Below are positions 7,646 through 31,600 of a stretch of DNA of 32,540 nucleotides, in pieces (the first letter of the stretch is position 1; every line of letters begins with the position of its first letter). Position numbers and translations under genes: made by a program. The DNA comes from Candidatus Woesearchaeota archaeon (lineage in GTDB: Archaea > Nanobdellota > Nanobdellia > Woesearchaeales > ARS49): NCBI GenBank assembly GCA_030750765.1, contig JASMHM010000001.1, forward strand, positions 1-32,540, in the 5' to 3' direction. The notes beneath the pieces are model-generated. The model was given only the letters and a program-made list of their open reading frames with translations, was not told where the DNA came from and made no database searches.

Positions 7646-7707
7646 GGTTCTAAAAATTATTTCATTTAATAACTATTAAACGTACTGATATTACCTGTCT
7701 TCTGAAG

Positions 7708-7722
7708 TCCCTGTCCACTCGC
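7708..7722 (+). repeat. Imperfect copy of tRNA-Arg 3' end (possible att scar)
   Basis: tccctgtccactcgc matches the tRNA-Arg 3' end and following base (tccctgtccgcccgc, 6848-6862) at 13 of 15 positions, in the same orientation, and a gaa lies just before both copies. The two copies bracket the A/T-rich methyltransferase gene. Integrases that use tRNA genes leave such repeats, but no integrase is present and the match is short, so chance is possible. Confidence 0.35.
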
Positions 7723-7731
7723 ACCTAAACC

Positions 7732-7758
7732 TTTATATAACATTTAGTTATAATATAT
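7732..7758 (+). promoter_or_regulatory. Toxin-antitoxin promoter with overlapping palindrome
   Basis: Two TATA-like elements (tttatataa at 7732-7740 and taatatata at about 7751-7759) precede the antitoxin ATG at 7776; the second is about 22-25 nt away. An inverted repeat TATAAC-N5-GTTATA (7736-7741 and 7747-7752) overlaps both. Antitoxins commonly repress their own operon by binding such sites, so this is a candidate operator. Confidence 0.45.
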
Positions 7759-7775
7759 AACAAATTGTAACAAAA

Positions 7776-8018
7776 ATGGCTCAAGCATTAATAAAACTGG
7801 GAGAAAGAGAGGATCGCGTTTTGACTATTGTGAAAGGTAAGTTTGGATTCAAGAACAAATCAGACGCGGTTAATTTTGTGATAGAAAAATTTGAGGAAGA
7901 ACTGTTAGAACCTGAGCTTAGGCCTGAGTACGCGAAGAAAATCAAAGGAATAATGAAAGAGAAGGGCAAACGATATCGCAGCATAGACGAGTTGAGGAAA
8001 GAGATCGAGCATGCGTGA
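7776..8018 (+). CDS. Antitoxin of a RelBE-like pair (DUF2683-like)
   Basis: 80 residues. The pattern MAQALIKLGEREDRVL-IVK-KFG-KNKSDAVNFVIE (ribbon-helix-helix type N-terminus) followed by EE-LLEPELRPEY resembles the archaeal DUF2683 antitoxin-like family. The first half should bind DNA as a dimer and the C-terminal tail should wrap the toxin. The last 8 nt overlap the toxin gene, the standard antitoxin-first order. A palindrome overlapping the promoter fits autoregulation. The mRNA is probably leaderless, since no Shine-Dalgarno precedes the ATG. The assignment as antitoxin rests on sequence pattern and context. Confidence 0.8.
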   Translation: MAQALIKLGEREDRVLTIVKGKFGFKNKSDAVNFVIEKFEEELLEPELRPEYAKKIKGIMKEKGKRYRSIDELRKEIEHA

Positions 8019-8286
8019 GTTTGAAATAAAGCCTAAACTACGAAAGATTCTTGATAAGCTGCATAAGAAAGATAGAAAGACATACAACGCAGTTATGCAA
8101 AAAATAGAGGAAGTGCTACGGTCGGAAGGCATTGAGCATTACAAGAACCTTAGACATGATATAAAACAGTTCAGCCGCGTTCACATCGGTAGTTTCGTCC
8201 TGGTCTTTTCCTACAACAAGCAAAGTGATTTTGTCATCTTCATTGACTACGACCATCACGACAACATTTACAAAACGGGAAGCTAA
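8011..8286 (+). CDS. RelE/ParE-superfamily toxin
   Basis: 91 residues, the usual size of RelE-fold toxins. The N-terminal half has two helices (LRKILDKLHKKDRKTYNAV---IEEVL), followed by the beta-sheet KNLRHDIKQFSRVHIGSFVLVFSY and a C-terminal FVIFIDYDHHDNIYK that resembles the end of RelE-type mRNA interferases, which cut mRNA on the ribosome. Basic and His residues (R48, H49, R56, H58, H82, H83) are available for catalysis. The start overlaps the antitoxin by 8 nt, with a purine-rich segment (gttgaggaaagaga) upstream for coupled translation. ParE-like gyrase inhibition is less likely but not excluded. Confidence 0.82.
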   Translation: MREFEIKPKLRKILDKLHKKDRKTYNAVMQKIEEVLRSEGIEHYKNLRHDIKQFSRVHIGSFVLVFSYNKQSDFVIFIDYDHHDNIYKTGS

Positions 8287-8301
8287 CAGATCCCTGCCCG
8301 T

Positions 8302-9057
8302 TTATAATTCTTCGTACTTTTCTACGATTTGCCCGATGTTTTCAAGTTTGGTGATGCGTTCGTGTTCCACCGCCTTCCCACCATCTTCGTACACCCAGGA
8401 CGCCGCAGGAATGTAAACAACGCGAAAGCCTGCACTGACCGCAGGCATCACATCACTGTGCAAGGAGTTGCCAACCATCCTAACATTTGCAGGTTCTCGA
8501 TCGTTCAACACGTGCTGGTACATAGGAACGTGCTTGTGGGGAACGATGAGCACTCTAGCATCAGGTACAGGCGTGGTAATATCAGGGACAAACCCGCATT
8601 CGTCGCCAAACCATCTTTCAAGATTAAGAGCGCGTACCTTTTCGGTTTGCACATCCTCATCTCCTTTTGTGAGAATAAGGAGCTCGTCTCCCTTTTCATG
8701 GAGGAAGTCTAGCGTGGATGTTGATCCAGGAACGAGTCCTCTCGCCTTCCATGTTTTAACATCATACGTGCTAAGACCTAGGCCGTACACTGGCTCAGAA
8801 TGGGTCTTTGGGACACCCATCTCATCGCAAAGTTCGCCGTAGACCTGCTGGAGAGCAAGAGGAAATCGGCAACTTCGAAACCCGTGCTGCTTTACAAGCT
8901 CAACATTTCGTTTTTCTACGCGTTCGGCCACGCTAAGTAACGATGGAGCCCGTTCATGGCGCATGTACAAAAAACGTAAGAACTCTGCCTTGACCCGGTT
9001 GTAGTCCACCGCAGTGTCCAAAAGCGTGTCATCCAGGTCAAACATCCATGTTCTCAT
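8302..9057 (-). CDS. HAD-superfamily hydrolase
   Basis: 251 residues with the four HAD motifs: motif I FDLDDT (nucleophile D7, acid D9), motif II ending LILTKGD (T130), a motif III lysine probably K175, and motif IV MVGNSLHSDVMPA (D202). A helical cap domain at about 15-105 places it with C1-cap phosphatases such as phosphoglycolate phosphatase or FMN/pyrimidine phosphatases. The substrate cannot be predicted. It should be cytoplasmic and Mg-dependent. A minus-strand TATA box (ctttttatacg, 9077-9087) lies 25 nt before the ATG, so the transcript is likely leaderless. The gene ends 15 nt from the convergent toxin gene. Confidence 0.85.
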   Translation of the reverse strand: MRTWMFDLDDTLLDTAVDYNRVKAEFLRFLYMRHERAPSLLSVAERVEKRNVELVKQHGFRSCRFPLALQQVYGELCDEMGVPKTHSEPVYGLGLSTYDVKTWKARGLVPGSTSTLDFLHEKGDELLILTKGDEDVQTEKVRALNLERWFGDECGFVPDITTPVPDARVLIVPHKHVPMYQHVLNDREPANVRMVGNSLHSDVMPAVSAGFRVVYIPAASWVYEDGGKAVEHERITKLENIGQIVEKYEEL

Positions 9058-10873: not shown

Positions 10874-12475
10874 ATGAGTGATGGATATTTTGGTAATGTA
10901 GAGCTGGCACTACAAGTGGCACATGTCGCTCCAGAAAACCGCCTTGTTGACCCCGATTTCGGACAGGGCGTTGGTCCCGTACCCAATCTTGATGCGTACC
11001 CCAAAGACTTCCAAAGACTCATTCGTGGACGATACTCCCACCTTGTAGAACCAGAGGAGGGCCAGATCAAGGTGCTGTACAAGATGGAACGCCTTCCCCG
11101 ACTGACTGATGGAGAACTTTCTGTGTTGGTGCCCAGCACAGAACTTCATGCAGGGAAAAGGTCACTCACGATCCCAGAAACCGAGGTACAAGTCTCCCAC
11201 AAAAGAGAATACCACCCCGCGATTGACCCAGAATTCGATGACGTTGAAGAAGACCCAGACCATCCAGGAGTTGTCAAAAGAATAGGAAATTTTGAGATTC
11301 TCAACAGGTATCTCTCCACAACGTTTAGCACCTTCACCTTCAATATTGCAGAACCCGATAATTGGAATGAGCTCAATGAACGCATAGGAGAATTGAAGGA
11401 AGGCAGTCTTGCGGAGTACATCACCACGCGTGCAGAAGCAGTCCATCGTTTTAGGAATTCGCCCAAACTTGCAGAACGCATAGACAAACTTGATGGAGAG
11501 TTCGACCAAACACACCAGGAACTCATACAATCCTGGAATCTTGCCACGAGAAGCTACCACGTCATCAGAGACAGCACGCTCATCCGCATCCTTTGCGAGT
11601 ACCAAAAGGCCATCGGCAAGGGAGTATATGTCCATCGCTATGAACAAGCACCCTTGATCGCCATAGACGCCTCTGGCAGAATGCTCAACTCCAACCACCC
11701 GAACCCGGACAGGCAGATCATGAAGAGCGACATAGACGACGCCCCCCTTTCACAACATGAAAGGCTCCCGTTTAACCAATCCTTTCAAGATGCAGTGCAA
11801 GCGGGGTTATGGGAGATTCCCGAAAGACGACCGGATTATCTCGTCGAATCATGGAACAAGCTTATCCGAGCGGGACGGCTGGCCAACGACGGATCGAACA
11901 ATGAAACAATAACTGCCTGCCAGACATCCTTAGAAATCATGCTACGAGGAACATTAGCAAGATACGGAGATATGAGTCATGAAGAAGTTCAAAAGAAAGG
12001 ATACAAACTCCAAACCTTGATGCGAAGATGTGAGAGCGTTCTTGCAAGTACGAAGAAAAGGAAGGGTGCAGCCCTCGCAGCTCCCATCTTTACCAAGCTC
12101 ATTAACATCACGAAAAAGGACGCAGTCAGCTTGGTAGACTACAGAAACGCGACCGTTCACGGCAACAGTTGGGGAGATCTGCCAAACTTTCTTGCGAGAT
12201 ACGCAGTCCAGGCGTGCGGTGAGGCAATATGCTACTTGGAAGAAGAGGCCTGGAAGCACGACGAACCCTTAACACTAGCAAGCGACCTGTACCTATGGCT
12301 CTATCCAACGATCCAAAGCACGTTCGGACTCAAAAGCGACATTGACGCAATGAACGGACGGATGGCCGCCAAACTATTGGGCTACATGGGCACTGAAGCA
12401 CTTATCCAACTTCCCGACTCCATGCCTAAGGGATCCTTGTCCCGAGGTCTCGTGACCGAATTCTTACAGTCCTAA
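10874..12475 (+). CDS. Large protein with C-terminal HEPN-like domain
   Basis: 533 residues, soluble. The first 330 residues match no family I know: an acidic beta-rich part (about 60-140) and a helical part (about 160-250). Residues about 340-460 look like a HEPN domain: a helix with ETITACQTSLEIMLRGTL, then VDYRNATVHGNSW with R424-N425-x3-H429, the RNxxxH motif of HEPN ribonucleases. HEPN proteins often act in toxin-antitoxin, phage defence or RNA processing. A nucleotidyltransferase partner, the common companion, is not adjacent. The start has a TATA-like gtttataac (about 10844-10852) 26 nt upstream; a second TATA-like ctatataaa overlaps the start region. The function is open and the HEPN call is from motif and context only. 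Confidence 0.72.
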   Translation: MSDGYFGNVELALQVAHVAPENRLVDPDFGQGVGPVPNLDAYPKDFQRLIRGRYSHLVEPEEGQIKVLYKMERLPRLTDGELSVLVPSTELHAGKRSLTIPETEVQVSHKREYHPAIDPEFDDVEEDPDHPGVVKRIGNFEILNRYLSTTFSTFTFNIAEPDNWNELNERIGELKEGSLAEYITTRAEAVHRFRNSPKLAERIDKLDGEFDQTHQELIQSWNLATRSYHVIRDSTLIRILCEYQKAIGKGVYVHRYEQAPLIAIDASGRMLNSNHPNPDRQIMKSDIDDAPLSQHERLPFNQSFQDAVQAGLWEIPERRPDYLVESWNKLIRAGRLANDGSNNETITACQTSLEIMLRGTLARYGDMSHEEVQKKGYKLQTLMRRCESVLASTKKRKGAALAAPIFTKLINITKKDAVSLVDYRNATVHGNSWGDLPNFLARYAVQACGEAICYLEEEAWKHDEPLTLASDLYLWLYPTIQSTFGLKSDIDAMNGRMAAKLLGYMGTEALIQLPDSMPKGSLSRGLVTEFLQS

Positions 12476-16676: not shown

Positions 16677-17312
16677 ATGGAAGAACATAAAATCGTTAAG
16701 ACCGGAACAACAACGGTCGGTATCGTTTGTAAAGACGGTATTGTACTCGCTGGAGACAGAAGGGCCACTGCAGGCTATGTCGTTATGAAAAACGCAAAGA
16801 AAGTAGTACCCATCAATCATAACATGGCAGTCACCACGGCTGGCAACGTCTCCGACATCCAACTCTTGGTAAAACTTGCCAAAGCAGAGATGGTCCTAAA
16901 GGACCTCCAAAGCAAGAGAAAGAGCACAGTGAAGGAAATCGCCAACCTGTTTGGCGGAATGTTATACTCCAACATCAGAAAACCAAGCATGATTCCAGGC
17001 ATCGCAGCCTTCTTGCTTGGAGGAAGCGACATCAAAGGAACACACCTGTTTTCCTTAGACCCTGACGGTTCAGTCATTGAAATTGATGAGTACGTTACCG
17101 ACGGCAGCGGAAGTGTCTTTGCCATAGGCGTCATGGAAGCACAATACAAAAAAGGACTATCCCTTCAAGAAGGAGTCAAACTCGCAGTAACCGCGATCAA
17201 CGCATCCATCCAAAGAGATACCGCAAGTGGCAATGGCATTGATGTCTTGACCATCACGGACAAAGGTATGGAGTTCGTTATAGAACAAAAAATAGAAACA
17301 AACCTAGCATAA
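16677..17312 (+). CDS. psmB: Proteasome beta subunit
   Basis: 211 residues. The catalytic subunit of the archaeal 20S proteasome degrades unfolded and tagged proteins in the cytoplasm. The short propeptide ends KTG, and self-cleavage would expose T11 (TTTVGIV). D27 in LAGDRRAT and K42 complete the catalytic set by comparison with Thermoplasma. The GSDIKGTHLFSLDPDGS strand and the GSGSVFAIGVMEAQY segment are family signatures. The alpha subunit is not in the window. The gene has a leadered promoter with a Shine-Dalgarno and is followed 18 nt later by fttA, so the two are probably co-transcribed. Confidence 0.95.
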   Translation: MEEHKIVKTGTTTVGIVCKDGIVLAGDRRATAGYVVMKNAKKVVPINHNMAVTTAGNVSDIQLLVKLAKAEMVLKDLQSKRKSTVKEIANLFGGMLYSNIRKPSMIPGIAAFLLGGSDIKGTHLFSLDPDGSVIEIDEYVTDGSGSVFAIGVMEAQYKKGLSLQEGVKLAVTAINASIQRDTASGNGIDVLTITDKGMEFVIEQKIETNLA

Positions 17313-17330
17313 ACAGTTTCTTATCATAAC

Positions 17331-19226
17331 ATGGCAGAAATCATAAAAGAAATTTTGAAGAAATTGCCGGAAGATAAAATAAGCGCTGCCGGCTTCGAAG
17401 GCGCGAACATCGTGTTATACACGAAGGACGAAGAGTTCTTTACTACCAATAGCGGAGAGATCCGAAAGGTTGTGCAAGAATTCAAGAAACGCATAGAGCT
17501 CAGGCCGGACCCCAGCATCACCATGAAACAGGAAGATGCTGAGAAGGCCATCAAAGAACTCATGCCTGAAGACGCTGGCGTGGCCAACGTTATCTTTGAT
17601 CCGGAAAGAAGTATAGTATACATAGAAGCTGAGAAGCCAGGCATTGCCATCGGCAAGCAAGGTTCACTATTACGAGATCTACGAGCTAAAATCTTATGGG
17701 TGCCAGTCGTACAAAGATTGCCCCCCATCAAGAGCTCGCACATCGACAACATCCGACAAGTACTCTACCAAAACTCCGACTATCGCAGAAAGTTCCTAGA
17801 CAAAGTAGGACATCGCATCTACGACGGCTGGGTACGCGAGAAAAAGCAAGAATGGGTACGCGTCACACTGTTAGGGGCAGGAAGAAGCGTGGGCAGAAGC
17901 TGCATGCTCTTCCAGACACCCGAAAGTAACGTGATCATGGACTGTGGCATAGACGTTGCAGCCACAGAACCCGCACAAGCCTATCCAATGTTGGACGCTC
18001 CAGAATTTGATATTGGAAAACTAGACGCAGTCATTGTTACGCACGCACACGTAGACCACTCAGGATTTGTTCCTTGGTTGTTCAAAATGGGTTATCGAGG
18101 ACCCGTATACTGCAGTCCCCCAACAAGAGACGTCATGATATTGCTACAATTAGACATGATCAAAATCTGGAAAGGAGAGAACAAGGAAGAGTTGTATACT
18201 GTAGACGATGTTAAAGAAATGGTCAAGCATTCCATAACACTCAACTACGAAGAAGTTTCAGACATCACCCCTGACATTCGTCTAACCTTCTACAATTCCG
18301 GCCACATCATTGGTGGAAGCATGGCCCACCTCCATGTAGGCAACGGACTGCACAACTTCATGTACACAGCAGACCTAAAATTCGGACGATCATTACTACT
18401 AGAACCAGCTACCTCACGCTTCCCACGATTAGAAACGCTAACCATCGAAGGAACGTATGGTGGAAAGACAAACACCATGCCCAGCCAGGAAGACCAAGAT
18501 GAACTGCTGGCAAACATAATCAAGACCACCATCAAGAGAGGTGGAAAGGTGTTAATGCCCGTGTTAGGCGTGGGTAGAAGTCAGGACATCATGGTCATGA
18601 TCGAAAAAATGGTCCAAAATGGAGATCTCGACCCCACCCCTGTCTACCTAGAAGGTATGCTTTGGGACGTCACAGGTATCCACACGGCGTATCCAGAATA
18701 TCTTAACCGAAGCATTCGCAAGCGCATCTTCCACAAAGACCAAAACCCGTTCTTGAACAAGATTTTCAAGAGAGTGGGAAGTGCTAAGGAAAGAAAGCAA
18801 GTGGTTGAGGATACCGGACCGTGTGTGATATTGGCAACCTCTGGCATGTTGCAAGGTGGACCCTCAGTGGAATACCTCAAAGCCCTAGCCGACAATCCAA
18901 AGAACACCTTAATCTTCAGCTGCTACCAAGGAGAAGGAAGTCTGGGTCGTAGAGTCCAAGGTGGCGAAAGAGAGATCGCATTCAAGACAGGCAAGACACA
19001 AAACATGGTCCAGATCAAGATGGAAGTCCAAAAGCTAGAAATTTCTGACCACTCAGACAGAAAACAATTGATGAACTTTGTCTTCAAGTGCAACCCAAGA
19101 CCAAAGAAAGTTATAGTACAGCACGGCGAAGCAAGCAGATGTATAGATCTTGCAAGCAGCATCCACAAACAAGGCAGAATCGAAACCGTCGCTCCAAGAA
19201 TTCTAGAAAGTGTACGATTGAAGTAG
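17331..19226 (+). CDS. fttA: Transcription termination factor FttA (aCPSF1, KH/beta-CASP nuclease)
   Basis: 631 residues, the usual size. In archaea aCPSF1/FttA cleaves nascent RNA and terminates transcription. Two N-terminal KH-type domains (about 1-145, with GKQGSLLRDL at 108-117 as a GxxG-like loop) are followed by the metallo-beta-lactamase domain with zinc motif THAHVDHSGF (237-246), the beta-CASP domain, and the final DHSDR and VQHGEASRC motifs. Its place behind the proteasome gene with an 18-nt gap suggests an operon. It ends 1 nt before the convergent gene's stop. Its role fits the compact 3' ends in this window, where termination must occur within or against neighbouring genes. Confidence 0.95.
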   Translation: MAEIIKEILKKLPEDKISAAGFEGANIVLYTKDEEFFTTNSGEIRKVVQEFKKRIELRPDPSITMKQEDAEKAIKELMPEDAGVANVIFDPERSIVYIEAEKPGIAIGKQGSLLRDLRAKILWVPVVQRLPPIKSSHIDNIRQVLYQNSDYRRKFLDKVGHRIYDGWVREKKQEWVRVTLLGAGRSVGRSCMLFQTPESNVIMDCGIDVAATEPAQAYPMLDAPEFDIGKLDAVIVTHAHVDHSGFVPWLFKMGYRGPVYCSPPTRDVMILLQLDMIKIWKGENKEELYTVDDVKEMVKHSITLNYEEVSDITPDIRLTFYNSGHIIGGSMAHLHVGNGLHNFMYTADLKFGRSLLLEPATSRFPRLETLTIEGTYGGKTNTMPSQEDQDELLANIIKTTIKRGGKVLMPVLGVGRSQDIMVMIEKMVQNGDLDPTPVYLEGMLWDVTGIHTAYPEYLNRSIRKRIFHKDQNPFLNKIFKRVGSAKERKQVVEDTGPCVILATSGMLQGGPSVEYLKALADNPKNTLIFSCYQGEGSLGRRVQGGEREIAFKTGKTQNMVQIKMEVQKLEISDHSDRKQLMNFVFKCNPRPKKVIVQHGEASRCIDLASSIHKQGRIETVAPRILESVRLK

Positions 19227-19605: not shown

Positions 19606-20275
19606 CTACACAAACCCGTACGGGACATCCCACTCGGTCATTTTTTGTCCTCTTTCTTTGCACACGTGGCAAAAACGTCTTGAATTGCTTGAGGTGGTAG
19701 CCATAGCACAATTTTTGTCTATGTTACCTCCCCCCCCATGCTGCGGTATCGCGCTGATCATTGTTGTGATGGCGCATGTTCAGGAGACAATGACCGAGTT
19801 CGTGTTGGGTAACTTGTGGGATTGAGTAGTCCTCGCAGGCTAACACTTTATCTAGGCTTATGAGTATCGGAGCGTGCGATTCCCTGGAGGTCTGTCCCAC
19901 CGTTTCCTGTTGGTCTCCGCGGGCCACAACGATAAGACGGTAGTCTTTGTTTTCCGTTATCTTCCTCAAGTCTCTCAAAGCTGGAGAAAAGTGAAGGGAT
20001 CCGCCCACCACATACCCATTTACGACATCAAGATATGATCTTCCGTCCTTTTCTAGATCACAAAAATGAGTTTCAGGAATTTGCAAACCCAAGTTCTTGT
20101 AAAAATCTCGCACCCCCTTACGTACGAGATCTTCAACAATCTTTGGAGCCCAGCTCACCGAAGACACCACACCAAAACGAGTCCTACGAAGGAATTTTAG
20201 CCTTTCCTTTTGGTAGTGGCGACCCATCTCTCTGGATTCATTTGCAAATATCAAGGGTTGTGTTCGTACTACCAT
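19606..20275 (-). pseudogene. Archaemetzincin-like metalloprotease, frameshifted at a G8 tract
   Basis: The ATG at 20275 opens a frame with zinc motif VTQHELGHCLLNMRHH that stops early after AWGGR. Removing one G from a run of eight G (19730-19737, minus strand) opens a continuation that runs NIDKNCAMATTSSNSRRFC, then CHVCKERG, and ends PYGFV at a TAG (19606-19608). This restores the C-x-M and C-x2-C cysteines of archaemetzincins and matches the end of the upstream paralogue (DCVLAS, FCDLCKKR, YGLV). The full product would be about 222 residues. It may be a recent pseudogene, a phase-variable gene, a slippage site or a sequencing error. The start overlaps the paralogue's stop as TGATG, indicating translational coupling. 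Confidence 0.8.
19730..19737 (-). repeat. Homopolymer G8 tract at the frameshift
   Basis: Eight consecutive C on the plus strand (G8 on the coding strand) mark the exact point where the protease frame is lost. Seven G would restore a full-length protein with its cysteine motifs. Long G runs slip readily in replication and sequencing. Confidence 0.9.
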
Positions 20276-21057
20276 CAAACTAACCCATACCTACGGTCCT
20301 CTTCTTCGATGACTCTTGCTCGTTTCTTGCACAAGTCACAAAAGGTCTTCCCTTTGCCGTACGTGCTTGCTAGCACGCAATCGCTCACCATGCCAGCTTC
20401 GAAAACCTCGACATCCTCTTCGGCATGATGACCTCGACCTAACAACACGTGCGTTTCTTCGTGAGTGACCACTTCAATAAGGGACATTCGGGGGGCGCTC
20501 CGGACTTGATCAATGCTGACCACCATGGCACCCATTTGCAGATTGGAACTCTCCCCTAAATCACACCCGGTAAATCCAGGAACCACCGCGAGTATACGAT
20601 GAGCAGGGTTTGCGTACTTGTCATCTAGGGCTTCTCTAAATCCAGACAGATCCAAGTTCTCACCATCATAGAATTGTGCATGAACGTCCGCGTATTCCTT
20701 CAGCTCTCTCCTTGAGGGGATCACGATATTCAATCGCGGAAGAGTAAGTCCTAATCCCTCAAAGGTTTTCGATATGCCTTCTAACACCTGTTCTCGTAAA
20801 TCTACATTCTTCTCGAAGCAGACAAGCTCAAATGATCCTCGGTCCACGTATTGCTGGTTCCATAGTTGGGCAGCGGATTCTCGTGCAGGAGGACGTGGAA
20901 TGCCTGAGGCCTCTCTTCTCTTCTTAAGCCGTGGCTTGAAATTTTGAGAGGTTCTTGCGGGGGCCTCCTCCTCATACATGGATGAGCCACCATGCGAGCC
21001 ATGCGGTTCCGGATCTCGATCAGGAGGTGGCAAGGGCGGCATAGGCGGATCAAACAT
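20275..21057 (-). CDS. Archaemetzincin-like zinc metalloprotease
   Basis: 260 residues. Residues 1-70 are a Pro/Asp-rich, probably disordered extension. The catalytic part resembles archaemetzincin: a strand LPRLNIVIP, then MGAMVVSIDQVR, the zinc helix THEETHVLLGRGHH (H199, E200, H203 and H210 or H211), and a cysteine set with C227 and C240-x2-C243 (FCDLC) likely to bind a second zinc. The spacing to the third histidine is one residue longer than the canonical HExxHxxGxxH, so it is a divergent member. No signal peptide is seen. Archaemetzincin substrates are unknown. A TATA box (cttaaaaat, minus strand, about 21079-21087) is 26 nt upstream. The stop overlaps the start of a second, frameshifted paralogue. 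Confidence 0.75.
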   Translation of the reverse strand: MFDPPMPPLPPPDRDPEPHGSHGGSSMYEEEAPARTSQNFKPRLKKRREASGIPRPPARESAAQLWNQQYVDRGSFELVCFEKNVDLREQVLEGISKTFEGLGLTLPRLNIVIPSRRELKEYADVHAQFYDGENLDLSGFREALDDKYANPAHRILAVVPGFTGCDLGESSNLQMGAMVVSIDQVRSAPRMSLIEVVTHEETHVLLGRGHHAEEDVEVFEAGMVSDCVLASTYGKGKTFCDLCKKRARVIEEEDRRYGLV

Positions 21058-27537: not shown

Positions 27538-27593
27538 TCTTTATAAGGGAACTTTCACTGTATAGAGTATATGACTTTACGGTCACAGAGGTG
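27538..27593 (+). promoter_or_regulatory. Promoter and Shine-Dalgarno of the protease/NTase-HEPN operon
   Basis: ctttataagg (about 27538-27547) is the better-placed TATA box, about 56 nt before the ATG at 27599. A second A/T-rich element (tatagagtatatg) lies at 27560-27572. The leader carries gaggtg (about 27588-27593) as ribosome binding site. Confidence 0.5.
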
Positions 27594-27598
27594 TAACC

Positions 27599-27820
27599 AT
27601 GGCAAAAGAAGAAATATCAAAAGAAGAACAAGTAGGATTTCATAAAGGAAGTTTGAGCACGTTAGCTAAAGAAAGACAAGAATTAGCAAGATTATTGCAA
27701 ATAGTAGAGACATTAATGACCAGCCACATAAAAGCACTAAAAGATCTAGGCATCGACCTAGAAGCAGAGGCAAAAAAGGCTGAGAAGAAGCCAAAAGCCA
27801 AGTTGGAGGACCAACTTTGA
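27599..27820 (+). CDS. Small helical protein, first gene of the protease/NTase-HEPN operon
   Basis: 73 residues forming one or two long amphipathic helices: EEQVGFHKGSLSTLAKERQELARLLQI and then LMTSHIKALKDLGIDL, followed by a Lys/Ala-rich tail. It has no signal peptide and no enzyme motif and is probably a coiled-coil adaptor or dimer. The next gene starts at a TTG that overlaps this stop (TTGA), with a Shine-Dalgarno GGAGGA (27805-27810) inside this gene, so the proteins should be made together and may interact. I do not recognise a named family. Confidence 0.75.
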   Translation: MAKEEISKEEQVGFHKGSLSTLAKERQELARLLQIVETLMTSHIKALKDLGIDLEAEAKKAEKKPKAKLEDQL

Positions 27821-28557
27821 GTTATCAAGGCGGCTGTGGATACAGTCAGCCCAGTATGAGCTACATGTCAGCAGCTCCGCAAGGAGCCATGTACTCATCT
27901 AGCTATCAGCCTAGTGCTGACAGCACGTACATGACCAACTTGACCATGGAAGAGCCAAGCGTCCTGTACTTCTCCCCTGCGGAGTTTTTAGACCCTACAC
28001 GACCGCCTGTAGAAAACATAACTGAGGAAAACAAGGGCGCAGTCATGAGCATTATTAGGGAAACCTTCCAACACAGAACAGGAGAAGACTTCCCAGAAAA
28101 CAAGATCATCATCAGTATCGGAAGTAAAGAAACACTGAAAGAATGGCACAACGTAGCCGGAGGAGCATGGAGCGAAGGCATCCAAGGATTTGCGTTGAAC
28201 AGCAACAACAACCAACCTCACAGAATATTCGTGAAGGAAGGACCTAAAGATCAGATGTTGCTCACGTTAGGGCACGAGATCGGCCACGTCATGACACCCA
28301 CGCTAGAAAACGAACACGACGAGGAAGCAAAAGCCTTCGCATTCAGCATAGCATGGATGCAAACCATCATAGAACACGACATAGCAGGCTTAAGTTCGTT
28401 CTTGAACCCACAACCCGCCATGAACGGCCTACACAATGTAGCGTATGGATTCGTGCAAACATTGATACAAAACGGTAAGACAGCGATGCAAGCGTTCGTC
28501 GACATCGTCAACAAGACAGCATCTTGCAAACAACAACCCGAGGTAATCACAATATGA
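27817..28557 (+). CDS. Putative HExxH zinc metallopeptidase
   Basis: 246 residues from a TTG start. The N-terminal 45 residues are low complexity, rich in Ser, Tyr, Met, Gln and Gly. The zinc helix LTLGHEIGHVMTP (149-161) carries HExxH at 153-157, and a second acidic helix ENEHDEEAKAFAFSIAW (164-180) offers a glutamate (E169 or E170) as third ligand, as in gluzincins. No signal peptide is present, so it is probably cytoplasmic. The TTG is supported by GGAGGA 6 nt upstream and the 4-nt overlap with the preceding gene; M14 is a fallback. The next gene's ATG overlaps this stop (ATGA). Substrate and peptidase family are unknown. Confidence 0.78.
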   Translation: MSYQGGCGYSQPSMSYMSAAPQGAMYSSSYQPSADSTYMTNLTMEEPSVLYFSPAEFLDPTRPPVENITEENKGAVMSIIRETFQHRTGEDFPENKIIISIGSKETLKEWHNVAGGAWSEGIQGFALNSNNNQPHRIFVKEGPKDQMLLTLGHEIGHVMTPTLENEHDEEAKAFAFSIAWMQTIIEHDIAGLSSFLNPQPAMNGLHNVAYGFVQTLIQNGKTAMQAFVDIVNKTASCKQQPEVITI

Positions 28558-30395
28558 AAGAACAACCTATGCCAGGCCCAATGCCTGGACCCATGCCTGG
28601 CCCAATGCCAGCCGGCCCGCAACCTATGCGAATGCCACCAGAAGTACAAGAAAAATTCAAAAAGCTACAAAAAAGACTGGACAAGTTCAAAGACGTTCTA
28701 GTTAAGAAGTTCGGAGACTTAGTAATAGGATTAGCATTACTACCGCCTCCCAAACCCCAACCAGGAAGAGAGATTCCTCCTGAACAAAAAGACAAACACC
28801 ACGTTTTAGTGCTGTTGGACGAAACAAAATCAAAGATAGACCCAAGAGACTTCCAAGTCAAAGTGTTTGACGCCATCGACAAGGTAGCCAAAGACACCGA
28901 TGATGAATTGTTACCACAATCATTGCTCTTACGAGAGTTGTGGCAGAACTGTTACGACGGAAAGACAGAATTACTAGAATTGATCGCTATGGGCGCGCCC
29001 ATCTACGATAAAGGAATGTTGAACGCAATCCGCATCGCAGAAGTGCACAAACGCATGGCACTAGAAAAGTTCGAACGCTACATCGTAGCCTACGTACTAG
29101 CCGGATCGTTAGTCCAAGGCAAAGCAACACCTGCGTCTGACATCGATGTCTTCATCGTCGTAGACGATACTGACGTCAAGAAAATGACGCGATGGGAGTT
29201 ACGTGACAAACTACGCAACATAATCATAACCATGGGAATGCAAGCTGCAGAAATGACAGGAGTGAAGAACAAGCTCAACGTCCAAGTCTACATCTTGACA
29301 GACTTCTGGGAAAGCATCAAAGAAGCAAACCCCGTCATCTTCACCTTCTTACGAGATGGCGTACCCTTCTTTGACAGAGGCATCTTCATGCCATGGAAGT
29401 TGCTATTGAAAATGGGAAGGGTCAAACCCTCCCCAGAAGCGATAGACACGTACATGAGCAGCGGAGAACAATCCTTAGACAGAGTCAGGACACGATTGAA
29501 AGAGATCGGTATCGAAGATTTCTTCTGGAGCATCCTCACACCAAGTCAGGCAAGCCTGATGTTGTACGGTTTGCCACCACCAACACCAAAGGACACGCCC
29601 ACTCTAATGAGAGAGATCTTCGTCGACAAAGAAAAGATTCTTTCTGACAAAGACGTCCAAACACTAGAAATGGTCATCAAGACCAGAAAAGATCTAGAAC
29701 ACGGCGAAAAGAAAGAAGTGACGGGAACAGAGATTGACACCATGCTCACTAACTGCCGTTCGTACCTAGAAAAGATACGAGGATTGTTTGGCAGCATTGA
29801 AAAGCTCAAAGAAAAGGAAAGTATCGGCACGATACATGACGATGTTATAACAACAGTGAGAGACATCCTCAAGCAACAAGGTCAAGATCGCGTCAAAGAA
29901 GATGAGATCGTGGAATGCTTTGAACACCACTTAATCAACACAGGAAAGATTCCTGTCAACCAGTTCAGAAGCCTCCAAGAATTGATCAAGGCTAACAAGA
30001 ACTACGAAGGCATGAACCAAGTCCAAGTGACGAAAGTCAGGAAAACAAGCTTTGATCTCCACCGACACCTGGTAGAGTTCTTGCAACGAGGACGAGGAGA
30101 AGAGTTAGAACGCGCCACCGTAATGGTAAAGCACGGCTCTAAGTACGCCAAAGTGATACTCTTAGGTAGCACCGCGTACATCTTCCACGACATCGACAAC
30201 CAAGAAGGCGAGTTCAGCAAGGCCAGCATCAAGAACGATGGCGGTCTTGGCACCACAGAAAAGGCAGGGCTAGAAGAATACGAAAAGAGTTTGGCAAAAG
30301 TAGCCATCCCAGAAAAGGTATTCCTCAAAGCACCCCTATTCGAAGGTTTGGAACGCATCTTTGGCAAGGACATCGAAGTCCAAGTGAAGAGCTAA
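28554..30395 (+). CDS. Nucleotidyltransferase-HEPN fusion protein
   Basis: 613 residues from the ATG at 28554. Residues 5-28 are a Pro-Met-Gly repeat. A helical region (30-175) precedes a polymerase-beta-type nucleotidyltransferase domain with LAGSLVQGKATPASDIDVFIV (G184-S185-x10-D196-x-D198). The usual third carboxylate strand reads NVQVYIL, so that acid may be missing. Residues about 300-390 resemble a HEPN domain, with SQASLMLYGLPPPTPK and R378-x4-H383 (RKDLEH). A 200-residue C-terminal part is unassigned. MNT and HEPN proteins usually form two-gene toxin-antitoxin systems; here both signatures are in one chain. The ATG overlaps the protease stop, with GAGGT 9 nt upstream. No membrane segment is seen. 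Confidence 0.78.
   Translation: MKEQPMPGPMPGPMPGPMPAGPQPMRMPPEVQEKFKKLQKRLDKFKDVLVKKFGDLVIGLALLPPPKPQPGREIPPEQKDKHHVLVLLDETKSKIDPRDFQVKVFDAIDKVAKDTDDELLPQSLLLRELWQNCYDGKTELLELIAMGAPIYDKGMLNAIRIAEVHKRMALEKFERYIVAYVLAGSLVQGKATPASDIDVFIVVDDTDVKKMTRWELRDKLRNIIITMGMQAAEMTGVKNKLNVQVYILTDFWESIKEANPVIFTFLRDGVPFFDRGIFMPWKLLLKMGRVKPSPEAIDTYMSSGEQSLDRVRTRLKEIGIEDFFWSILTPSQASLMLYGLPPPTPKDTPTLMREIFVDKEKILSDKDVQTLEMVIKTRKDLEHGEKKEVTGTEIDTMLTNCRSYLEKIRGLFGSIEKLKEKESIGTIHDDVITTVRDILKQQGQDRVKEDEIVECFEHHLINTGKIPVNQFRSLQELIKANKNYEGMNQVQVTKVRKTSFDLHRHLVEFLQRGRGEELERATVMVKHGSKYAKVILLGSTAYIFHDIDNQEGEFSKASIKNDGGLGTTEKAGLEEYEKSLAKVAIPEKVFLKAPLFEGLERIFGKDIEVQVKS
28569..28616 (+). repeat. 12-nt tandem repeat coding Met-Pro-Gly-Pro
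   Basis: Three near-identical 12-nt units (atgcctggaccc-like) and a partial fourth encode repeated Met-Pro-Gly-Pro at the N-terminus of the NTase-HEPN protein. Such arrays can change copy number by slippage without breaking the frame. Confidence 0.75.
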
Positions 30396-30412
30396 TTCTT
30401 TTTTTACTTTTA
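30396..30412 (+). terminator. T-rich terminator of the operon
   Basis: ttctttttttactttt directly follows the stop codon of the NTase-HEPN gene. Oligo-T runs end transcription in archaea, so this probably closes the three-gene unit. Confidence 0.6.
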
Positions 30413-30493: not shown

Positions 30494-31600
30494 ATGGGAC
30501 AACTAGAGGACTACGTAAAGGAACAGCTCAAGGCTGGCTACACTAAAGAGCAGATCCAGAGCTTGCTAGCCGCCTACTACCCTCCTGAAGCGATCAATAA
30601 GGCGTTGAAAACGTCTCACACCGGCTTGTTCATAGCCCTGCCGCTCATCATCATGCTGATCATCGGCATGGGCGTCACCACACTTATCTTTGTAAAAACT
30701 CCAGACGCAGCATCCTTTCCTTTGACTGTTTCAGCAAGTGTTGAGCCGCGAAGTGTCGTACAAAATGGCGATTTCGTGGCCTCCATAACTGTAGAGGACG
30801 GGATTACCACGAAACACCCAATTAACCTCCTCATCAAGGTAGTAGATGAAACAGGAAAGATCATTTTCGAACAAAAAGACTTCATCGTTGCAGCAGGCAA
30901 GGGCAGTCGTCAAAAGCCTGCCAAAGCGTTCATGCCTCCTGGAAGGTATTCCGTGCTTGTAGAGGCATCCAACAAAGAAGAAACAGCATCCATCACGACA
31001 AGCTTTGTGGTAACCGGAGCAAAAGCCGCACCTCGCCCGCCTCCAACAGCTTTGCCACCAAGACCGCGACCAAAAGAACCAGAAAAGCAAGCAAGCGGCG
31101 TGACGGTCAGCGCACCAAAAGCCTGCACTTCAGACTCCTGCATTAGTCAGCTAGCAGCAGTACAAGATGACACAACGGTTTGCGACCAGATCACGAGTTC
31201 GGACGGTAAGGACTCCTGCCTTTCCTACTTCTTCCTGCATGGAGACTTCAGCGTATGCGCAGTATTGAAGAATCCAGAGATTCAACAATCTTGCATGGCG
31301 CTCAAGCAGTTCGCAGATCCTGACGAGGTGGACGTGATCGTGGACGATCTTGTGGAGGAAGTGATCAAGGACGTATCCATCTTGGACGACGGCTTCGCCC
31401 CTGACCCGGTAGAGATAGTTGCTCCCACCACAGTGATCTGGACAAACGATGCAGAATCCGACCAAGATGTTGTAGGGGATGACTTCCAATCACAAACATT
31501 AGAGCCAGGAGATCCATTCAGCTTTGTCTTCACAGACCCTGGAGAGTACACCTACGAATCAACATTCGGAGAATTTACAGGCACAGTGTCAGTCAGCTAG
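30494..31600 (+). CDS. Membrane-anchored protein with Cys-rich module and degenerate cupredoxin domain
   Basis: 368 residues. Residues 1-40 are a cytoplasmic helical pair (YVKEQLKAGYTKEQIQSLL). A transmembrane helix at about 44-67 anchors the rest outside. Residues 75-175 look like an immunoglobulin-type beta domain, followed by a Pro-rich linker (180-198). Six cysteines (211, 216, 230, 242, 255, 267) form a compact module that would suit three disulfides. The last 75 residues have the cupredoxin pattern (DGFAPDPVEIVAPTTVIWTN and FTDPGEYTYES), but by alignment the copper ligands His, Cys, His, Met are Q324, E355, F358 and F361. Copper binding is therefore unlikely and a structural or binding role is more plausible. 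The 3' end overlaps the convergent gene by 12 nt. Confidence 0.8.
   Translation: MGQLEDYVKEQLKAGYTKEQIQSLLAAYYPPEAINKALKTSHTGLFIALPLIIMLIIGMGVTTLIFVKTPDAASFPLTVSASVEPRSVVQNGDFVASITVEDGITTKHPINLLIKVVDETGKIIFEQKDFIVAAGKGSRQKPAKAFMPPGRYSVLVEASNKEETASITTSFVVTGAKAAPRPPPTALPPRPRPKEPEKQASGVTVSAPKACTSDSCISQLAAVQDDTTVCDQITSSDGKDSCLSYFFLHGDFSVCAVLKNPEIQQSCMALKQFADPDEVDVIVDDLVEEVIKDVSILDDGFAPDPVEIVAPTTVIWTNDAESDQDVVGDDFQSQTLEPGDPFSFVFTDPGEYTYESTFGEFTGTVSVS

Follow-up and report, generated by a model that had tools for sequence, protein, structure and literature searches.

The 32,540-nucleotide stretch of Candidatus Woesearchaeota DNA analyzed here (contig JASMHM010000001.1, hereafter the window), part of the 1.14 Mb, 16-contig genome of a tiny-celled archaeon, carries a three-gene operon that encodes a small helical protein (gene 1), a HExxH metallopeptidase-like protein (gene 2) and a protein in which nucleotidyltransferase (NT) domains are fused to a HEPN domain (gene 3). 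We consider the chances about even that this operon is a nucleotidyl-transfer machine of these archaea, members of the order Woesearchaeales in the phylum Nanobdellota, with an added peptidase. An NT-HEPN match was obtained in 370 of the 371 phylum genomes, usually with two paralogues, of 613 and about 270 amino acids (aa). Because a gene of the gene 3 type is kept in nearly all genomes of a phylum whose genomes are very reduced, a basic role is expected of it, and we see the trio as a way into an unsolved core function, not as a toxin-antitoxin pair.

The operon, with its Shine-Dalgarno (SD)-like sites, is laid out as follows.

27588..27593, + strand: SD-like GAGGTG of gene 1 (sequence)
27599..27820, + strand: gene 1, helical protein of 73 aa
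27805..27809, + strand: SD-like GGAGG of gene 2, within gene 1 (sequence)
27817..28557, + strand: gene 2, HExxH metallopeptidase-like protein of 246 aa with a TTG start
28540..28544, + strand: SD-like GAGGT of gene 3, within gene 2 (sequence)
28554..30395, + strand: gene 3, 613 aa, with pseudo-NT, NT, HEPN and helical plus beta-containing C-terminal parts
30399..30405, + strand: T tract (T7) past the gene 3 stop, probable terminator (sequence)

The coordinates and junctions given in the initial annotation, which had been made from the sequence alone, proved exact, and the recurrence of the domains, motifs and gene order in relatives shows that the pattern did not arise by chance. Genes 1 and 2 overlap in TTGA (27817-27820) and genes 2 and 3 in ATGA (28554-28557), and the SD-like site lies 5-10 bases from the start codon in all three genes. 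Third-codon GC is 0.54-0.56 in genes 2 and 3 against 0.50-0.53 in the adjacent housekeeping genes, and is lower (0.32) in the short gene 1. The proposal that the three genes are made together as one unit is supported by gene order, and so is the remark that the combination belongs to no named system.

The predicted structure of the gene 3 product, modelled with AlphaFold2 on an input of 37 sequences (pTM 0.64, with pLDDT averaging 84), begins with a disordered Pro-rich segment, followed by alpha/beta domains at residues 28-156 and 157-290, a helical bundle at 290-425, further helices and a beta-containing end. We assigned its parts and key residues as listed below.

28635..29021, + strand: residues 28-156, degenerate NT duplicate (hhalign and parallel secondary structure)
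29022..29423, + strand: residues 157-290, NT domain with GSX10DXD (PF01909; conserved motif)
29283..29285, + strand: Q244, where topology would put the third metal ligand, Gln instead of Asp
29421..29828, + strand: residues 290-425, HEPN fold (Foldseek, and hmmsearch versus 2hsb)
29685..29702, + strand: RKDLEH at residues 378-383, an RX4H motif (sequence alignment)
29826..30392, + strand: residues 425-613, helical region and then beta-containing C-terminal domain, both unassigned (AlphaFold2 model)

In a Pfam scan gene 3 matched PF01909 (E 1.1e-6; 29.4 bits versus a cut-off of 21), as did 41 of the 41 relatives scanned, and the GSX10DXD motif lies at residues 184-198, with G184, S185, D196 and D198 invariant in 68 of 68 order-level copies. 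When residues 28-156 and 157-290 were aligned with hhalign, the probability was 99.25 and the E value 5.9e-20, and the two domains are therefore duplicates. GS and DxD have both disappeared from the first, and letters of its own (W130, D135 and K137) are kept in 68/68 copies, so it is a conserved pseudo-enzyme domain and not a decaying one. Foldseek placed the NT domain on MntA (8xeo; TMt 0.68) and the helical bundle on the HEPN protein 2hsb (TMt 0.79, root-mean-square deviation 2.4 over 121 columns), and an hmmsearch match to 2hsb had an E value of 0.041. Thus the MNT-plus-HEPN composition first proposed for gene 3 was borne out by both profile and structure prediction, although the second, catalytically dead NT domain had been missed. 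We set aside a possible further HEPN-like unit in the C-terminal part, for which the hhalign probability was just 27. In some divergent families (genomes G153, G195, G129 and G118; L269-L272), the best gene 3 relative has 335-390 aa and lacks the pseudo-NT domain; the domain duplication may be derived, or it may have been lost secondarily.

The top Foldseek matches for the NT domain plus bundle were AAD(9), AadA and kanamycin nucleotidyltransferase, which share the two-domain order and overall fold of gene 3 and raise the idea of a small-molecule (drug-modifying) adenylyltransferase. We regard this as highly improbable, because gene 3 is part of the near-universal core, has about 85 columns that are invariant in its family, carries a duplicated NT domain and a C-terminal region that those enzymes lack, and matched no aminoglycoside model above its cut-off. 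The Hailong nucleotidyltransferase HalB was also matched in structure over the NT and helical parts; in this analysis gene 3 showed no sequence similarity to it and was seen in no defence context.

The metal ligands of MntA are D39, D41 and D71 (PMC7641770), and judging from the strand topology of the predicted model, the third of them appears to be replaced in gene 3 by Q244. This Gln is invariant in the 68 order-level copies and throughout the class-level copies examined. The matching position of the short paralogue holds no Asp or Glu. In the HEPN domain, Arg and His of the RX4H motif are present in 66/68 and 67/68 order-level copies, respectively, and K379 and E382 show stricter conservation. 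In copies from outside the order the Arg is mostly Tyr or Phe, and KxxEH persists in most of them, so that the deep conserved HEPN motif of the family is KxxEH rather than RX4H. Judged by the classical motif, an RNase role is therefore possible within the order and unlikely as the ancestral core role, and the claim of an active HEPN RNase is weakened by the Tyr or Phe in the class-level sequences.

The distribution of the NT-HEPN genes also speaks to their role. The long form gave a strong match (best E 1e-70 or lower) in 106 of 118 order genomes, 11 of the others having a short-paralogue match only and one 56%-complete genome having none. Most full-length long-form copies in the order are about 45-60% identical to gene 3, and nearly all of its close relatives in named records carry the label Woesearchaeota or Nanoarchaeota. 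The short-paralogue profile matched 192/193 order genomes, a count that includes matches to the long form; in the window's genome the short paralogue is at C8:236003-236791.

The initial annotation had pointed to the MNT-HEPN toxin-antitoxin modules and suggested activation or release by cleavage, or a stress-response machine; protease-triggered release is speculative. In a rival reading of this kind, a toxin-antitoxin or defence module, the NT would silence the HEPN RNase by AMPylation and the peptidase would release the RNase under stress. The exact GSX10DXD, the RX4H of order members and a weak resemblance both to PADLOC PDC-S09 and to the MntA model NF047752 (E 3.3e-6, under its cut-off) fit such a module. 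However, position 385, where RX4HXY has its AMP-accepting Tyr (PMC7641770), is mostly T, E or D in gene 3 and its order-level relatives, and the motif Arg is lost from most copies beyond the order. NT and HEPN are fused in a near-universal gene with a paralogue, whereas modules of this kind show a patchy mobile distribution as separate adjacent genes; gene 2 is missing from most genomes. A pattern search of a viral contig collection found no relative, and a viral or mobile origin was rejected on that result. On these motif and distribution tests we rejected a toxin-antitoxin or defence module as the leading explanation and now consider it quite improbable, and we advise that NT-HEPN genes of this type should not be labelled toxin-antitoxin modules.

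In several genomes from outside the order the long NT-HEPN gene has its short paralogue as a neighbour; in G258, G285, G295 and G383 (L267, L263, L258 and L261), for example, the two share a strand and are separated by about 0.8-1.5 kb. We entertain, as a possible but doubtful extension, a phylum-wide system in which the paired NT-HEPN paralogues would modify a target connected with translation, and a dedicated HExxH peptidase of one order would be wired to either paralogue as a control. Such a system, with a dead NT domain in one paralogue and both paralogues apparently without the usual third catalytic carboxylate, would be unlike any characterized one. Among short copies, that at L197 (NT gene 7704-8702) reads FGGEGG instead of FGS, and its GS-like and DxD motifs are separated by a low-complexity insert of ~65 residues. 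The short gene also has recurrent neighbours of its own (L171-L189, L192-L199), namely an AP_endonuc_2 TIM-barrel protein, an orphan of ~510 aa, a Fis-type helix-turn-helix protein, DUF483, a TYW3-like protein and surface proteins.

The connection of the peptidase-like gene to the NT-HEPN genes was observed repeatedly. Gene 2 is directly upstream of gene 3 (190 bases or less) in 14 genomes, two of another family and 12 of the window's own, where this arrangement holds in all 12 genomes in which gene 2 was found; gene 1 precedes gene 2 in 13 of the 14 and is unplaced in the remaining one. Named contigs show the same trio order, which recurs in divergent relatives, where the genes either overlap or are separated by at most a few tens of bases, and gene 3 differs at 43% of sites on average among the trio loci. 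The proposed survey of gene order thus had a divided outcome: the trio is the rule in the window's family, and elsewhere in the order the three genes are usually apart, the arrangement that the initial annotation had named as refuting. Away from gene 3, gene 2 lies within 3 kb of a short NT-HEPN gene in 12 further genomes of several families, and within 15 kb in 16. The chance expectation is about 0.2 of 36, and a naive binomial gave p of about 1e-16 to 1e-18, a value that is uncorrected for shared ancestry and hence strong rather than exact. On the gene 3 tree the trio falls in separate groups, with four changes versus about 12.7 when labels were shuffled, and the evolutionary distances of the three genes correlate from one trio locus to another (r 0.49-0.64; p 0.0002 by permutation), which is what vertical co-inheritance would lead one to expect.

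The main sceptical rival is that the trio is a loose housekeeping cluster, co-transcribed in the window's family, whose members have unrelated jobs. The separation of the genes in most of the order and the position of gene 1 among translation genes favor this view, but gene 2 is a partner of the long paralogue in two families and, in several other families, of the short one. Moreover, genes 1 and 2 are adjacent in other families (G246, G082 and G215), with a short NT-HEPN gene, gene 2 and gene 1 in tandem in G246, and gene 1 is directly upstream of gene 3 with no gene 2 between them in G177 and G102. These overlapping pairings of the three genes and the short paralogue provide the strongest argument that they act jointly, and we regard a loose cluster as rather unlikely.

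The gene 2 product has a disordered Gly/Ser/Tyr-rich tail (residues 1-55) and a folded domain (57-240); its model is confident for about residues 57-240 and disordered before them. Two motifs stand out in the folded part.

28273..28287, + strand: H153-E-I-G-H157 zinc motif (H153, E154, G156 and H157 invariant in 31 relatives)
28321..28344, + strand: E169-E-A-K-A-F-A-F, helix with a candidate third zinc ligand (alignment of the 31 relatives)

The HExxH motif noted at the outset is thus HEIGH at residues 153-157, and E169, E170, A171, K172, A173, A175 and F176 are likewise invariant in the 31 relatives. The order of HExxH and then a Glu-bearing helix is that of the HExxH zincins (M48, SprT-like and M78/IrrE). 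Unlike them, gene 2 has the N-terminal Gly/Ser/Tyr-rich tail and passed no model: neither Pfam nor the other profile libraries scanned gave it a name, and weak Pfam matches were spread over M48, SprT and M78. An M78/IrrE assignment from the EEAKAFAF motif was rejected, since neither profiles nor folds supported any single family. From its sequence, gene 2 is best described as a zincin-like HExxH protein without a family assignment; the suggested profile check, which succeeded for gene 3 with PF01909, did not place gene 2 in a known zinc-peptidase family.

Gene 1 is probably a helical hairpin. Among 23 relatives it has 20 invariant positions, including H15, H43, T21-L22-A23 and E25-R26, and a helix-turn-helix reading was set aside because its matches were sub-threshold only. 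An identity with NEQ484, given as an 'alpha helical protein' in PMC6393860, is tempting but was not adopted. The family is near-core, found in 233 of 321 phylum genomes, and outside the trio gene 1 is near aIF5B, PUA-domain proteins (PF13636; PF01472 with DUF1947) and DUF371, a translation-flavoured neighbourhood. Gene 2 is patchy: it was found in 75 of 343 phylum genomes, all but two of them within the order.

We propose that gene 3 would act as a housekeeping enzyme of the phylum that transfers a nucleotide, most likely adenosine monophosphate (AMP) to judge by its relatives, onto a macromolecular target, and that the acceptor is more likely to belong to the translation apparatus, whether as RNA or as protein, than to be a small molecule. 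The second NT domain would be the catalytic one, and the first, a dead duplicate, would hold the substrate or form a dimer face. The HEPN domain may shape the nucleotide and substrate site and, in this order, possibly also cleave RNA. Gene 1 would serve as a small helical adaptor or scaffold, perhaps in a physical complex with its partners. Gene 2 would be a zinc peptidase with a regulatory task, gained or retained in part of the order only, and would process or clear away one of the NT-HEPN protein's components or targets. Of this picture, the gene order, domain composition, conserved residues, distribution and repeated linkage are shown; the activities, the complex, the target and the parts played by genes 1 and 2 are inferred.

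The main mechanistic rival to this nucleotidyl-transfer reading is an RNA cut-and-tail enzyme, whose HEPN domain would cleave RNA and whose NT domain would add nucleotides to the ends in lineage-specific RNA processing or quality control. A pseudo-NT domain followed by an NT domain is reminiscent of TUT4/7-type enzymes. The RX4H motif in the order, weak matches to poly(A)-polymerase palm models and the translation neighbourhoods of gene 1 point the same way. Nevertheless, the RNase Arg is not kept phylum-wide, and according to Anantharaman et al. (PMC3710099) MNT-fused HEPN domains are usually without the residues of an RNase and resemble toxin-antitoxin pairs that have been domesticated. We judge this mechanism to be fairly unlikely.

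Several points weigh against a nucleotidyl-transfer machine with an added peptidase. The Gln at the expected third metal-ligand position leaves catalysis by gene 3 unproven. Foldseek found no confident fold match for the gene 2 model. The linkage counts carry no correction for shared ancestry, and the link to translation comes solely from the neighbourhood of gene 1. Most genomes with gene 3 are without gene 2, and gene 2 is therefore not essential for the core role of gene 3.

NT-HEPN fusions of DPANN archaea were flagged as an enigma already in 2019: cls.004259/NEQ050 was listed as 'MNT fused to HEPN', DPANN-specific, typically in a housekeeping context and suspected to matter greatly (Makarova et al. 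2019, PMC6393860, Table 1), and Makarova, Wolf and Koonin considered its conservation unusual for a toxin-antitoxin module (PMC6393860). As far as the table entry allows comparison, gene 3 is likewise a conserved MNT-HEPN fusion, with conservation shown here for this phylum; the entry mentions no pseudo-NT domain, two-paralogue arrangement or operon with genes 1 and 2. With type VII HepT/MntA (PMC7641770, PMC11586414) gene 3 shares the NT fold with GSX10DXD, the HEPN fold and, in the order, RX4H; it differs in being a fused, near-universal core protein with extra domains, without the Tyr acceptor and with Gln at the expected third ligand. Among open-licence papers we found none on the three-gene operon, an absence that is not proof. 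Gene 3 fits the picture given in PMC6393860 and PMC3710099; new beyond them are the pseudo-NT/NT architecture, the invariant Gln, the phylum-wide paralogue pair and the deep KxxEH motif, as well as the operon and the linkage of NT-HEPN genes with a HExxH family, described nowhere in the open-licence literature searched. The domain duplication, invariant letters, paralogue pair and operon partners turn the enigma into testable questions: what accepts the nucleotide, and what is the substrate of the peptidase?

Elsewhere in the window, directly 3' of the operon, 30494-31600 (+) encodes a probable membrane-anchored protein with a cupredoxin-like C-terminus, for which a plastocyanin match was sub-threshold only. 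The overlapping genes 20275-21057 (-) and 19724-20278 (-) form a pair with HExxH motifs, with HEETH...GHH plus a C-terminal CxxC and HELGH...RHH, respectively; these features are archaemetzincin-like with shifted spacing, and neither gene matches Pfam. The 533-aa orphan at 10874-12475 (+), also without a Pfam match, has RNATVH (Rx4H) close to its C-terminus and is possibly HEPN/Abi-like. At 16677-19226 (+), a proteasome beta subunit gene is directly followed by that of the beta-CASP nuclease FttA/aCPSF1.

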